DNA of 41,536 nucleotides from Prevotella sp. (GTDB taxonomy: Bacteria > Bacteroidota > Bacteroidia > Bacteroidales > Bacteroidaceae). This document shows positions 16,563 through 41,135 of the stretch, in pieces. Below the pieces are notes generated by a model, which had not been told where the DNA came from, searched no databases, and saw nothing but the letters and a program-made list of their open reading frames with translations. A program made the translations under genes and the position numbers. The stretch lies in the NCBI GenBank assembly GCA_017449025.1, contig JAFSKJ010000027.1:1-41536 (forward strand). The letters run 5' to 3'. How positions within the stretch are numbered: position 1 is the first letter of the stretch; each line of letters starts with the position of its first letter.

Positions 16563-16678
16563 AGGTGCCACTTGTCTGTCATTAAGTGGCACTTAACGGA
16601 GCAGGAGTGGCACTTAACGGAGCTAAAGTGGCACTTTTTTGAAATTAAGTGGCACTTTACGGTCGTAAAGTGCCACTC
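16563..16678. repeat. Six-unit 21-bp array of the palindrome AAGTGSCACTT
   Basis: Cores of 11 bp start at 16563, 16584, 16605, 16626, 16647 and 16668, each exactly 21 bp after the last. Consensus AAGTGSCACTT is its own reverse complement apart from the central base; end units vary (AGGTGCCACTT, GAGTGGCACTT, AAGTGCCACTC). Linkers are 10 bp and share ACGG in three units. The array is about 140 bp upstream of the mraZ start. A second array with the same core and period lies at 38700-38773. The period is two DNA turns, so all cores face one side of the helix, as expected for co-operative protein binding. Confidence 0.92.
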
Positions 16679-37015: not shown

Positions 37016-38311
37016 ATGGGATATTTGAAACGAACAGCCGATGCCGTCCTGGAACAGCACCTTGAAGCCTTTGGCGCAGTCTTGATTGAAGGGCCAAAAT
37101 GGTGTGGTAAAACCACTACTGCCGAGCAGGTGGCCAAGAGCGTTATAAAACTGCAAGATACTGATATGCGCGATGAGTATCTGGCCACTGCTGCCGCAAA
37201 ACCTTCATTGTTGCTGAAGGGTGACACACCGCGTCTGATTGACGAGTGGCAGGATGCGCCGGTATTGTGGGATGCCGTGCGCACAACGGTCGACGACAGA
37301 GGAGGTATGCCTGGGCAATTCATCCTGACAGGTTCCAATACCGTGGATAAGACGAAGATTCATCATTCTGGCACAGGCCGTATATCCAAGTTGGCCATGC
37401 TGCCAATGAGTCTCTGGGAGTCGGGAGAATCGAATGGAAAGATATCGTTGACGGAACTGTTTAACAATCCCTGTCTGGATATTGACGGCATAACCTCTGA
37501 CCTGACAGTGGAAGAACTCATTTTCTGCGGATGCAGAGGAGGATGGCCTGCCACGGTCAACATCAAAAGCGACAAGGCTAAGCTCCTCGTTGCACGCAAT
37601 TACGTCAAGACCATTTGCTCTGAAGACATCAGCCGCGTGGATGGGGTGAAGCGCGATGAACTGCTTGCCCGCATGATTATTCGTGCATACGCCAGAAACA
37701 TTTCTACACTGGCCAAGAAGACAACGCTTATCAAGGATGTGGCAGCATCGGGCGAAGTGTCTTGTTCAGAGCCTACCTTTGACGACTATGTAGAGGCATT
37801 GCGCAAACTCTTTGTGGTATGCGACCTTGATGCCTGGTGTCCTGCCATTAGAAGCAAGACGGCCATCCGCACTGGGCCAAAACGTGCATTTGTCGACCCG
37901 TCAATTGCTGTTGCCGCTTTGGGATTAACCCCTGAAGCCATGTTGAATCAGCTGAAGACTTTCGGCTTCCTTTTCGAGCAAATGTGTATTCGTGACTTCA
38001 AGGCCTACACCCTTGACTTTGAGAGCCACATCTCACACTATAGAGACCGCTATGGATTGGAGTCAGACCTCGTGCTACATCTTGGCGATGGCCGCTATGC
38101 CCTGATAGAATGTAAGCTCGGCAGTCGGGAGATTGAGGATGGCGCGACACACCTGGTGGAGTTGAAACGACTGATCAGAGAATACAACAAACAGGAGAAG
38201 CAAGTGCCTTTACGCGAACCTGATCTGATGATAGTGGTTACGGGGGGGAAGATGGCCTATACTCGCCCTGACGGAGTGAAAATTATTCCCTTAGGGTGTT
38301 TTAAGGATTGA
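37016..38311 (+). CDS. AAA ATPase with DUF4143-type C-terminal domain
   Basis: 431 residues. Walker A GPKWCGKTT (26-34), Walker B PRLIDEWQDAP (about 72-82), sensor FILTGSNT. Residues about 190-300 form a helical and winged-helix part. The DUF4143-type C-terminus carries ESDLVLHLGDGRYALIECKLG (about 347-368), whose Asp...Glu-x-Lys spacing resembles PD-(D/E)XK nucleases. The family is abundant and often multicopy in Bacteroidota, function unsettled; nuclease, toxin-like and mobile roles have all been guessed. It has its own promoter and no partner. Downstream it is followed at once by the same composite repeat that lies upstream of the ATPase at 28274, in inverted orientation. Confidence 0.92.
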   Translation: MGYLKRTADAVLEQHLEAFGAVLIEGPKWCGKTTTAEQVAKSVIKLQDTDMRDEYLATAAAKPSLLLKGDTPRLIDEWQDAPVLWDAVRTTVDDRGGMPGQFILTGSNTVDKTKIHHSGTGRISKLAMLPMSLWESGESNGKISLTELFNNPCLDIDGITSDLTVEELIFCGCRGGWPATVNIKSDKAKLLVARNYVKTICSEDISRVDGVKRDELLARMIIRAYARNISTLAKKTTLIKDVAASGEVSCSEPTFDDYVEALRKLFVVCDLDAWCPAIRSKTAIRTGPKRAFVDPSIAVAALGLTPEAMLNQLKTFGFLFEQMCIRDFKAYTLDFESHISHYRDRYGLESDLVLHLGDGRYALIECKLGSREIEDGATHLVELKRLIREYNKQEKQVPLREPDLMIVVTGGKMAYTRPDGVKIIPLGCFKD

Positions 38312-38432: not shown

Positions 38433-38540
38433 GTAGGGACTTACTTTATGTATGTCCGATTCTATGCGGGTTTGCGGACATACATGAAGTAAGTCCCTAC
38501 GATGTATGTCCGATTCTATGCGGTTTTGCGGACATACATA
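38433..38540. repeat. 68-bp palindromic repeat, copy B, plus a partial nested copy
   Basis: Full copy 38433-38500 with 26-bp arms (one mismatch) and a loop that is the reverse complement of copy A, bar one base. A partial copy follows at 38502-38540: 11-bp arm ends, the same loop and the matching right arm end. The intact partial loop is the exact complement of loop A. Confidence 0.9.
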
Positions 38541-38590
38541 ATGGACTCGCTACGCGCTTTGCTCGTCGAAGAAGTATAGTTTTATGAAAT

Positions 38591-38669
38591 AGGGTGTCAG
38601 GGTGACAGAATGTCATGCCACAAAGCGTTTGCACCCTGTTTGAGGGTGACAGAGGGTGACAGGAGGGTG
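38591..38669 (+). repeat. Left inverted repeat with GGGTGACA iterons
   Basis: 79 bp: 20 bp identical to the right arm, 17 bp divergent, 42 bp identical. GGGTGWCA occurs at 38592, 38600, 38644, 38654 and 38665. A CACCCT-GTTTG-AGGGTG hairpin lies at 38632-38648. Confidence 0.93.
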
Positions 38670-38699
38670 ACATGTCTGTGGCAATGGACTTTACACACC

Positions 38700-38773
38700 A
38701 AGTGCCATTGGATTTCCGTAAAGTGGCACTTTAGCGCCGTAAAGTGGCACTTTAGCTCAGATAAGTGCCACTT
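38700..38773. repeat. Four-unit 21-bp array of AAGTGSCACTT
   Basis: Cores start at 38700, 38721, 38742 and 38763, exactly 21 bp apart. The first is degenerate (AAGTGCCATTG). Same core and period as the array at 16563-16678; the inner edge is about 125 bp before the start of the gene at 38899, as the other is about 140 bp before mraZ. Confidence 0.92.
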
Positions 38774-38801
38774 AATTTCCAATCGACCACACCTGACGGG
38801 C

Positions 38802-38822
38802 TGTGTCATCATGTATGACACA
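38802..38822. promoter_or_regulatory. Palindrome TGTGTCAT-N5-ATGACACA
   Basis: Perfect 8-bp arms just upstream of a promoter-like TACTTTTTG (38835-38843) for the primase-helicase gene. TGACA is shared with the GGGTGACA iterons of the flanking arms, so one protein might recognise both. Confidence 0.6.
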
Positions 38823-38898
38823 ATGTTTATGGCATACTTTTTGCTTGTTGCAAATTTTGGTAAAATCAAAAAAGTTGAACTAAAAATCTGTTAATCAC

Positions 38899-41016
38899 AT
38901 GAGAGGAATTATTAAAGTAAGGATGAACTATCTCTACCGCCATAAGCAGAGAGATAAGATGGTGACGCTGAACGAAATAGCCAAGTGGACGAAAGAAGGC
39001 AAGTACAAACGGCGCGTCGAAATCGTCAGAGGCACCGACATGATGCCACTCAAGGGAAGAATGGCCTACAGGCCGCTGGCTATCGATGACCTGCCGACGG
39101 TTATGCCTGCTTGCGGACTAACAACAGACAACCCAACGTCCGCGCTGAAGAAACATGGTGAGGACTATGCTTACACTGGACTGGTGCTACTGTCATTCCG
39201 CATCACCGATGGCGTGGATACGCTGGAAAGGCTGCGCCACGTGGTCAACCTGTGGGAGCAGACACTGATGTCGTTTGCAGGAACGAGCGGAAGGTCGCTG
39301 AAGGTGCTGACAGCCTATCGCCTGACAGGCGGTGGGCTACCTACAGACCCGGCGCAAACAGCTCTGTTCCAGCAGTATGCATACAAGCGGGCAGCGGACT
39401 TCGCCTTTGCGTCGACAGGAATCAAGCCCGAGGAGGTTGAGCACAACGGCAGCGAGAGCTTCCGTATGTCATACGATCCGGCAGTTTACTACCAGCCTGA
39501 AGCGCGTCCCGTTGAGATGGAGCAACCCACGGAGCCGCTGACGGAAATGTCGGTACTGCCCATAGAGACCAAGGAGGCAACGCTCGACACTAAGATACTG
39601 CCCGGCTACACCCGCCGAGAGATGGAGGCCACGATGTACAACTTCATCTACCGCAAACTGGCATACGGAGAGAAGCTGGACAAGGAAGTATATCTCGCCA
39701 TTATTGCCACGGAGTGCAGGAATAGCGGCATTGACAAGGAGCTGGCCACGTCACTGACACTCGCAAATGGGGAGTTCTTCGGAAAGGAAGTTCTTGTGCG
39801 CTCTGCCTTCAATGCTGCCTACGAGAAGCACCCGTTGGGCATGCAGAACCCAGTAGAAACCACGCTCATGCACCAGCAGCTGTTGGAGGAGTTCCTGCGC
39901 CGACGCTACATGTTCCGAAAAAACTGCGTGACGGGCGACATAGAGTATCAGGAGAAACATCGCTACATGCTGCAGTGGAAACCGCTCACCGAGGAGGCAC
40001 AGAACGGAATAAACAACGCTGCTATCAGGGAGGGTATCAAGGCATGGCCCAAAGACTTCGAACGCTACATCAATAATGACCACACAGAGAGGTACGACCC
40101 CGTGCGCCAATGGCTCGACGACCTGCCACAGTGGGACGGCCGCGACCGTCTTGGCGAAATGGCCGACCGCGTGCCGACGTCGGTGCCCGACTGGCGCGAC
40201 AACTTCAAAATATGGATGCGCTCGATGGTTAGCCAGTGGCGCTCGGGCCGCGATGCCATGTACGGCGCACAGATGGTGCTGATGCTGGTGGGCGGACAGG
40301 GCACCCGCAAGTCTACCTTCATGCGCATGCTACTGCCAAAGGAGCTGATGCCTTTCTATATCGATCGCATTGACTTCACCAACAAGAAGGAGGCCCTGCG
40401 AGCGCTGAGCCGTTTCCTGCTCATCAACATCGACGAGTACGACCAGGTGTCGAAGGCACAGACTGCCTACCTCAAGCACCTTATCCAGCGCACCGACGTG
40501 AAGGAGCGCAAGCTCTACTCCACCACCTTCGAGCAGAGCCAGCGCTACGCCGCCTTCTGCGCCACCACCAACTCGCTGATGCCGCTGAAGGACGAGAGCG
40601 GCAGCCGCCGATACATGGTGGTAGAGGTCGACGGAACCATTGACACCGACACCCAAGGCGACAAGACCATAGATTACCGTCAGCTCTATGCCCAAATCGT
40701 CTACGAGATTGAGAACGGCGAGGAATATGCCTTCAAGGGCGAGCGCGAGCAGCTGATCATCAGCAGGAACGCCGACTACTATGAGCTGCCCAACGTCGTT
40801 AGCCTCTTCAACGACCATTTCCGCAAGCCAGAGAAGGGCGACATAGTATTTACGGTGAGTCCCACGGAAATCCTCAGCCTCATCAAGAGCGATCTGAAGG
40901 CAAACGTCGTGAATCAGTCAAACGCCACGCTCATAGGCAGTTACCTTCATAGGAACGGCTTTCAGAAAGGCAAAGGTGACAAGCGCCGCTGCTATCTCAT
41001 AGCCCGCAAATCCTGA
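38899..41016 (+). CDS. VapE/VirE-family primase-helicase-like protein
   Basis: 705 residues. The N-terminal part (about 55-205) resembles the BT4734/VirE N-terminal primase-like domain, with TSGRSLKVLTAYRL near 129-142; where family members tend to have acidic residues this one reads LLSFRITDG, so primase activity may be lost. A Pro/Glu linker (200-235) follows, then a helical region and a VirE/VapE helicase-type P-loop domain: QWDGRDRLGE (411-420), Walker A VGGQGTRKSTF (464-474), Walker B FLLINIDEYD (506-515), sensor FCATTN (553-558) and arginine SGSRRYMV. Homologues sit in Bacteroidota prophages and islands and in staphylococcal pathogenicity islands. Here it is the only gene between 79-bp inverted repeats. 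ATG 38899 is used; Met9 and Met21 are alternatives. Confidence 0.88.
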   Translation: MRGIIKVRMNYLYRHKQRDKMVTLNEIAKWTKEGKYKRRVEIVRGTDMMPLKGRMAYRPLAIDDLPTVMPACGLTTDNPTSALKKHGEDYAYTGLVLLSFRITDGVDTLERLRHVVNLWEQTLMSFAGTSGRSLKVLTAYRLTGGGLPTDPAQTALFQQYAYKRAADFAFASTGIKPEEVEHNGSESFRMSYDPAVYYQPEARPVEMEQPTEPLTEMSVLPIETKEATLDTKILPGYTRREMEATMYNFIYRKLAYGEKLDKEVYLAIIATECRNSGIDKELATSLTLANGEFFGKEVLVRSAFNAAYEKHPLGMQNPVETTLMHQQLLEEFLRRRYMFRKNCVTGDIEYQEKHRYMLQWKPLTEEAQNGINNAAIREGIKAWPKDFERYINNDHTERYDPVRQWLDDLPQWDGRDRLGEMADRVPTSVPDWRDNFKIWMRSMVSQWRSGRDAMYGAQMVLMLVGGQGTRKSTFMRMLLPKELMPFYIDRIDFTNKKEALRALSRFLLINIDEYDQVSKAQTAYLKHLIQRTDVKERKLYSTTFEQSQRYAAFCATTNSLMPLKDESGSRRYMVVEVDGTIDTDTQGDKTIDYRQLYAQIVYEIENGEEYAFKGEREQLIISRNADYYELPNVVSLFNDHFRKPEKGDIVFTVSPTEILSLIKSDLKANVVNQSNATLIGSYLHRNGFQKGKGDKRRCYLIARKS

Positions 41017-41095
41017 CACCCTCCTGTCACCCTCTGTCACCCTCAAACAGGGTGCAAACCCTTTGCACATCGGCGTTCTGTCACCCTGACACCCT
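41017..41095 (-). repeat. Right inverted repeat with GGGTGACA iterons
   Basis: Reverse complement of the left arm: 42 bp identical (41017-41058), 17 bp divergent, 20 bp identical (41076-41095). The divergent part makes a private palindrome GTGCAAA-CCC-TTTGCAC (41052-41068). The arm begins directly after the TGA of the primase-helicase gene. Confidence 0.93.
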
Positions 41096-41135
41096 TTTTC
41101 TGAAAAATCTGCATAGCAAAAACAAATCTTTAACC

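Follow-up and report, generated by a model that had tools for sequence, protein, structure and literature searches.

A replication initiator gene between inverted iteron arms: a probable mobile family in Prevotella

What kind of element consists of one replication gene set between two origin-like repeats? The question is raised by a unit in a 41,536-nt stretch of Prevotella sp. DNA (contig JAFSKJ010000027.1, assembly GCA_017449025.1; "the window" means this whole stretch). An earlier note, made from the sequence alone, had proposed a replicon-derived unit, and that description holds: an initiator gene lies between origin-like repeats, and Pfam finds no integrase or transposase between the arms, although no genome-wide search for a transposase tracking the arms was made. 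The unit very probably represents a mobile family with a cognate initiator. Chances are about even that it is a one-gene mobile element in which the initiator's iteron origin is present twice, inverted, as the ends of the element.

Direct reading confirms the arm structure described in the earlier note. The left arm (38591–38669) and the right arm (41017–41095), 79 bp each, match in inverted orientation over 20 bp, diverge over 17 bp and are identical over 42 bp, and each carries five GGGTGWCA units. The extended arms are 93 nt each (38580–38672, plus strand; 41014–41106, minus strand), are 86% complementary and stand 2,341 nt apart; compared with each other by BLAST, they match at E 8e-28. 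From outside to inside, an arm begins with its two outer iterons, followed by a divergent spacer, a half-iteron in inverted orientation and the three inner iterons. In the left arm the outer pair, GGGTGTCA GGGTGACA, lies at 38592–38607 and the inner three, of GGGTGACA, at 38644–38672, both on the plus strand, while the half-iteron opposes the first inner iteron at 38632–38648 (CACCCT-GTTTG-AGGGTG). The corresponding minus-strand iterons of the right arm are at 41079–41094 (outer) and 41014–41042 (inner). The exact word GGGTGACA occurs eight times in the window, seven of them within the arms, against an expectation of 1.57; no shuffle of 100 reached eight. In relatives, homology continues for about 23 nt beyond the first iteron and stops at a TATA-type end. 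By analogy, the outer termini are probably TATAG at 38575–38579 (plus strand) and CATA at 41112–41115 (minus strand).

The enclosed gene (38899–41016, plus strand) encodes a 705-aa protein, and its TGA stop codon is formed by the first three plus-strand bases of the extended right arm. Pfam matches the protein to BT4734-like_N (PF08800, E 4.8e-16) and VapE-like_dom (E 4.7e-32), and to weaker helicase or ATPase models. The predicted layout is a degenerate archaeo-eukaryotic primase (AEP)-type domain (residues 90–198), a VapE-type AAA+ helicase (406–627) and a C-terminal part that aligns with 7PDS. Modeling suggests that residues 293–705 adopt a VapE-type initiator helicase fold resembling PriRep1 (7PDS) and the SaPI5 primase-helicase (7OLA) of a staphylococcal pathogenicity island (SaPI); the comparison spans these residues and hardly covers the N-terminal part. 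Catalytic motif I of AEPs is defined as hhhDhD/E (PMC5862659). The window protein has VLLSFR at that position, where the catalytic DxD was not found, and none of 30 aligned proteins carries the motif there. The label "primase-helicase" in the earlier note is therefore only half borne out, for the predicted helicase and the BT4734-like_N match but not at the primase site. The gene is under strong purifying selection. That the protein is a SaPI-type self-loading initiator, with an inactive-looking primase domain, an active-looking helicase and a C-terminal DNA-binding part, is a reading of sequence and model to which we give even chances. Two leader open reading frames of 90 and 94 aa have no Pfam match.

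The arrangement is conserved. Among 398 genomes of the genus, 34 carry the gene at E 1e-130 or better, with 40 matches in total. Arms were inspected at 32 of these matches; eight without a locus in this comparison were left out (G197:C7, G191:C1, G380:C47, G131, G024, G421 and two in G290). Contig ends cut three of the 32 loci, and arms hug the gene in 28 of the 29 others; in the sole exception, G034 (L095), the left arm is complete and the right arm truncated. A generic iteron pattern, composed after the words had been seen and blind to the words of some members, recovers two outer and three inner units in 35 of the 54 arms of 27 members; the remaining arms deviate or carry words that escape it. 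The iteron word varies between members, with GGGTGACA and GACTGACA types as examples, and the inverted half-iteron varies together with it (CACCCT/AGGGTG, CAGTCT/AGACTG, CAACCT/AGGTTG). A stem of at least 6 bp is present in 44 of the 54 arms (0.815) versus 9% of shuffles, the longest stem of some arms being another one. The left arm is closest to the right arm of its own element in 20 of the 27 members, a count somewhat favoured by the definition of arms through mutual matching. Arm distances correlate with protein distances.

A scan of named genomes, whose set overlaps the genus-wide one, gave 79 loci drawn from the best 80 of 410. The close clade consists of drafts named Prevotella, Prevotellaceae or Bacteroidales, and ruminants figure in many of the names; distant members include Bacteroides, Parabacteroides and Segatella isolates. 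Among loci with enough flank, inverted arms (E <1e-4) were found at 41 of 43 close and 9 of 27 distant ones. When flanks were paired wrongly as a control, a repeat appeared in 29 of 60 close cases, because close members have iterons in common, and in 0 of 60 distant cases, which are the cleaner control. In a separate observation, the single contig of G024 holds four copies of a distant relative, about 95% identical, at dispersed sites (L088–L091); the stretch in common reaches 3.7 kb, and the end of its upstream reading frame resembles that of a single-stranded-DNA-binding protein. By eye, the gene is preceded in six distant Bacteroides relatives (L154, L307, L311, L318, L329, L330) by tandem repeats, palindromic or direct, that are specific to the member.

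The arms also occur apart from the gene. One arm was searched in 396 genomes, with two candidates scored per genome, and was found at E 1e-6 in 29. Of these, 24 carry the gene too; it was not found in the other five (G001, G155, G238, G289, G370), all less than 90% complete. Conversely, ten gene-bearing genomes lack this arm, and at least four of them (G148, G343, G422, G024) have arms with other iteron words. For pairing, 11 arm-bearing genomes in which all or nearly all candidates were scored were combined with the window genome, giving 171 arms. Neighbouring arms no more than 12 kb apart form 41 inward pairs, one outward pair and two same-way pairs. The inward pairs fall into size classes, with 31 of 239–1,078 bp, eight of 2,374–2,527 bp and two of 8.4 and 11.9 kb. 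All eight pairs of the middle class coincide by position with a full-length gene, that of G051 being interrupted by a frame change. In the 25 short pairs inspected (of 31), the longest ATG reading frame has 1–121 aa. These short pairs resemble miniature inverted-repeat transposable elements (MITEs). In G236, eight MITEs with 16 ends give a consensus in which the first iteron is followed, about 23 nt farther out, by a TATA-type terminus; several single ends lack this terminus.

The window genome (G000), a draft of 3.5 Mb in 134 contigs and 80.65% complete, displays this range of forms. Searched with a 101-nt stretch containing the left arm, it yields 38 BLAST matches at E 1e-3, both of the element's own arms included, and the 45-bp arm core has 33 matches with at most three mismatches versus none for a reversed control. 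Five inward pairs of window-type arms, 239–393 bp in size, lack the full gene (C72, C119, C10, C97, C50). Four of these (335–393 bp by arm matches) are 91–95% identical to one another and are internal deletions that keep the left arm and leader together with the last 11–31 codons and the right arm; the C50 pair is 77–83% identical to them. Contig C18 carries a second full-length gene, 71% identical, between diverged arms of its own (91 bp, 97.8% alike), and C63 holds a deletion derivative of it, 98–99% identical. The C18-type arm forms a separate family, with 16 of 22 matches at 93% or more and the next ones falling to 76–83%. This one genome contains two arm families side by side, and a full-length gene accompanies each. 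Many more of its arms are single and lie at contig ends or beside intergenic repeat modules of other types, and the solo arms are strongly mosaic when aligned. Fourteen arms (L026–L051) have the same outer flank, which contains ATTACCTTTG...CAAAGGTAAT-like boxes resembling Bacteroidetes -7 promoter elements, and lie inside mosaics of other intergenic repeats.

Between genomes, the unit appears at unrelated sites. The immediate neighbours differ across the 22 loci compared, except for the HU-HIG gene and a rho site common to two. By reading-frame call, the HU-HIG gene comes immediately after the right arm at 16 of the 22 loci, and at least two of the other six retain HU remnants. A few gene families recur farther out, and wider synteny links some closely related genomes (L145/L146, L137/L143). 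The clearest comparison is that of G197:C1 with G300:C141. Over 14 kb from each, at E 1e-10, the only homologous stretch covers 2,897 aligned bp at 96.4% identity, starting at CATATACTA and running as far as the HU stop codon. Between these genomes, rho identity is 78.9%. G107 holds a one-gene version, in which homology stops where the HU start codon would stand. As secondary evidence, since both genomes are drafts and misassembly is possible, the units of G051 and G336 are 98–99% identical, their rho genes are 96.3% identical and both immediate flanks differ. In G243, G415 and G146 the unit lies upstream of rho, where it was not seen at 14 other loci; the left flanks are unalignable. Judged from sequence, these comparisons support horizontal movement of the unit between species, and the MITE-like copies and differing loci support movement within genomes too. 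A single fixed syntenic locus, which the earlier note had weighed against its own reading, is ruled out by the differing neighbours and by near-identical copies at unrelated sites in two genomes.

Gene fragments for similar C-terminal peptides, of weak similarity, adjoin the element on opposite sides in two genomes, at the G197 and G300 insertions (L134:8274–8411, L150:5086–5181). G107 has a longer version of the fragment (L338), in a surrounding stretch that reads without arm sequence. These fragments may possibly point to an insertion preference.

How might such a unit spread? Its ancestor may have been a Rep/origin module like that of SaPIs, whose origin would then have been duplicated in inverted orientation, yielding a unit that its initiator copies from both ends: the initiator would bind the iterons of each arm, load helicase hexamers and melt the DNA, after which host polymerase would replicate the unit or its ends. 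Surplus copies would be inserted elsewhere, and joining to the target may use host end-joining, host recombination or the recombinase of a helper. Gene-less derivatives with both arms could be copied in trans to give the MITE-like copies, and broken derivatives would leave single arms. Each lineage would alter its iteron word together with its protein, so that several families coexist in a genome. That the initiator's replication drives the spread is, from the sequence comparisons, at or a little below an even chance. More tentatively, with the balance tipped somewhat against it, the family would form a class of transposable elements without a transposase, in which the inverted iteron origins of a helicase initiator are the ends, over-replicated copies are captured by host recombination and diversification of iterons produces independent, coexisting families.

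Several observations weigh against this account. The two-gene cassettes end at the HU stop codon and not at the right arm, and the C18/C63 duplicated stretch extends 115 bp past the left arm and into the HU gene. No consistent target-site duplication was found in 20 MITE loci. No clean empty site, which the earlier note had proposed to look for, was found at the rho loci, two MITE loci or the G197 site. For the two MITE loci, a joined-flank search of five genomes matched flank halves only, and an apparent rearrangement at one of them may reflect a nearby indel and contig ends; for the G197 site, joined flanks gave no junction-spanning match in 388 genomes with two candidates scored per genome. 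Many arms are unpaired in G000, G034 and G245, those of G000 standing among other repeats, so part of the arm spread may be passive. In G001, a genome in which no match to the gene was found, two arms point the same way. Eighteen of the 27 distant relatives have no arm pair at the threshold of E <1e-4, and most of the genomes are drafts.

Terminal inverted repeats with gene-less, MITE-like copies are the usual signature of a transposase. An ordinary transposase or recombinase encoded elsewhere could recognise the ends, with the initiator gene as passenger or accessory, and the TATA-type terminus outside the iterons in the MITE-end consensus would suit such an enzyme. Insertion sequences and their MITEs are likewise similar in having one gene, internally deleted gene-less derivatives and several copies per genome at different sites. 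Here, however, the gene is a replication initiator, no transposase was found, the arms are iteron arrays and there is no consistent target duplication. Nor would an unlinked enzyme lead one to expect that all eight pairs of 2.4–2.5 kb hold the gene while the 25 short pairs inspected hold no frame above 121 aa, that arms and protein diverge together, or that two arm families, each with a full-length gene, occupy one genome. We regard this explanation as unlikely, though one to be taken seriously.

A minimal satellite, whose Rep/origin module is amplified under an active helper phage or conjugative element and then transferred and inserted by helper enzymes, is distinctly unlikely. As described for SaPIs, the Rep gene has an iteron cluster directly downstream. 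The predicted VapE-type initiator helicase and, in position and layout, the iterons directly downstream of its gene resemble this SaPI Rep/ori arrangement, and the indicated transfer between species would also fit. Eight phage-collection records span at least 80% of the protein in one place, at 24–35% identity among the matches listed, in faecal contigs. Here, unlike in the SaPI Rep/ori, the origin-like cluster occurs twice, as inverted ends, and gene-less derivatives are dispersed in the genome. Unlike SaPIs and other phage-inducible chromosomal islands, the cassette, which holds a single gene with or without HU between its ends, shows no packaging, att, integrase or mobilisation gene, and the primase DxD was not found. 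IMG/VR viral contigs gave nine pattern matches and no confirmed relative, no relative of at least 60% identity appeared among phage or plasmid records, and a satellite alone does not account for the MITE-like copies within genomes. Two unannotated faecal contigs named "Bacteriophage sp.", 8.8 and 9.0 kb long, contain full-length relatives (32–34%; L157, L158).

Very unlikely, in our estimate, is a host-serving or addictive chromosomal locus, such as a defence system or decoy origin, whose arms regulate the gene and whose dispersed arms are secondary repeats like repetitive extragenic palindromes (REPs). Strong purifying selection, the HU-HIG gene that follows most copies and the unpaired arms common in three genomes would agree with it, as would a sequence resembling the Bacteroidetes promoter consensus outside the left arm in G243 and G415, which would place the arm in the 5′ leader. 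The different sites across genomes, the sharp-ended transferred copy and the 31 pairs with both ends and no full gene speak against it. The idea that the arms are a general intergenic repeat accords with the solo arms of G000, G034 and G245 and breaks down at the eight gene-holding inward pairs; taken as a complete explanation, a repeat unrelated to the gene is rejected on the grounds of orientation, size classes and association with the gene. A phage or plasmid origin was rejected, no close relative being found in phage, plasmid or IMG/VR records.

Other systems come near the proposed one-gene element with origin-like ends. REP repeats and bacterial interspersed mosaic elements are related to REP-associated tyrosine transposases (RAYTs), in which a mother gene is flanked by the repeat dispersed between genes; here no HUH tyrosine transposase was matched by Pfam within the unit, and the arms are iteron arrays of about 90 bp versus short palindromes. 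Casposons and other self-synthesizing transposons carry a replication protein between terminal inverted repeats; the present unit differs in that Pfam matched no Cas1-type integrase and no polymerase gene within it. The BT4734/BF3469 family of Bacteroides and Parabacteroides (NCBI name) agrees in the Pfam architecture of the one protein tested, in the lack of an HU gene directly downstream in the three regions viewed, in the iteron arms of one B. finegoldii copy and in the arm pairs of 9 of the 27 distant loci. It differs in its mostly 30–40% identity and in the 18 of 27 loci without arms at threshold.

No kind of element known to us or found joins transposon-like ends and MITEs with a replication initiator as the only gene between them. 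No published description of such an element was found in a search that most subscription papers and preprints lay outside, so an earlier description is possible; if an unlinked transposase proves to be the mover, the arrangement would be a variant within a known kind. The member-specific iterons, the MITE-like derivatives, the HU partner in most copies and the degenerate primase site had not been foreseen in the earlier note. Terminal repeats and MITEs normally mark a transposase; in this unit the ends resemble origins and enclose, as their one conserved gene, a replication initiator. If that initiator is enough to drive the spread, origins can serve as transposon ends, and insertion elements could arise from plasmid or phage replicons. 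One class of the lone BT4734/VapE genes found in Bacteroidales would then be explained too, along with part of the intergenic repeats of these bacteria. The question can be tested, as a single small plasmid has room for the gene, the arms and a MITE-like copy.

Some further features lie in and around the unit. No tRNA gene was found in the window. Between the left arm and the gene, a leader module of tandem palindromic AAAGTGGCACTTTA-type units occupies 38715–38783; similar stretches occur at 16581–16677 of the window and elsewhere in the genome, and the leader palindrome of another member stands alone upstream of rho in G259. The left neighbour gene (37016–38311) encodes an AAA_14/DUF4143 ATPase. 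Just upstream of the element, at 38433–38541, are two tandem, near-identical hairpins (ATGTATGTCCG...CGGACATACAT) with 38-bp units at 54-bp spacing.
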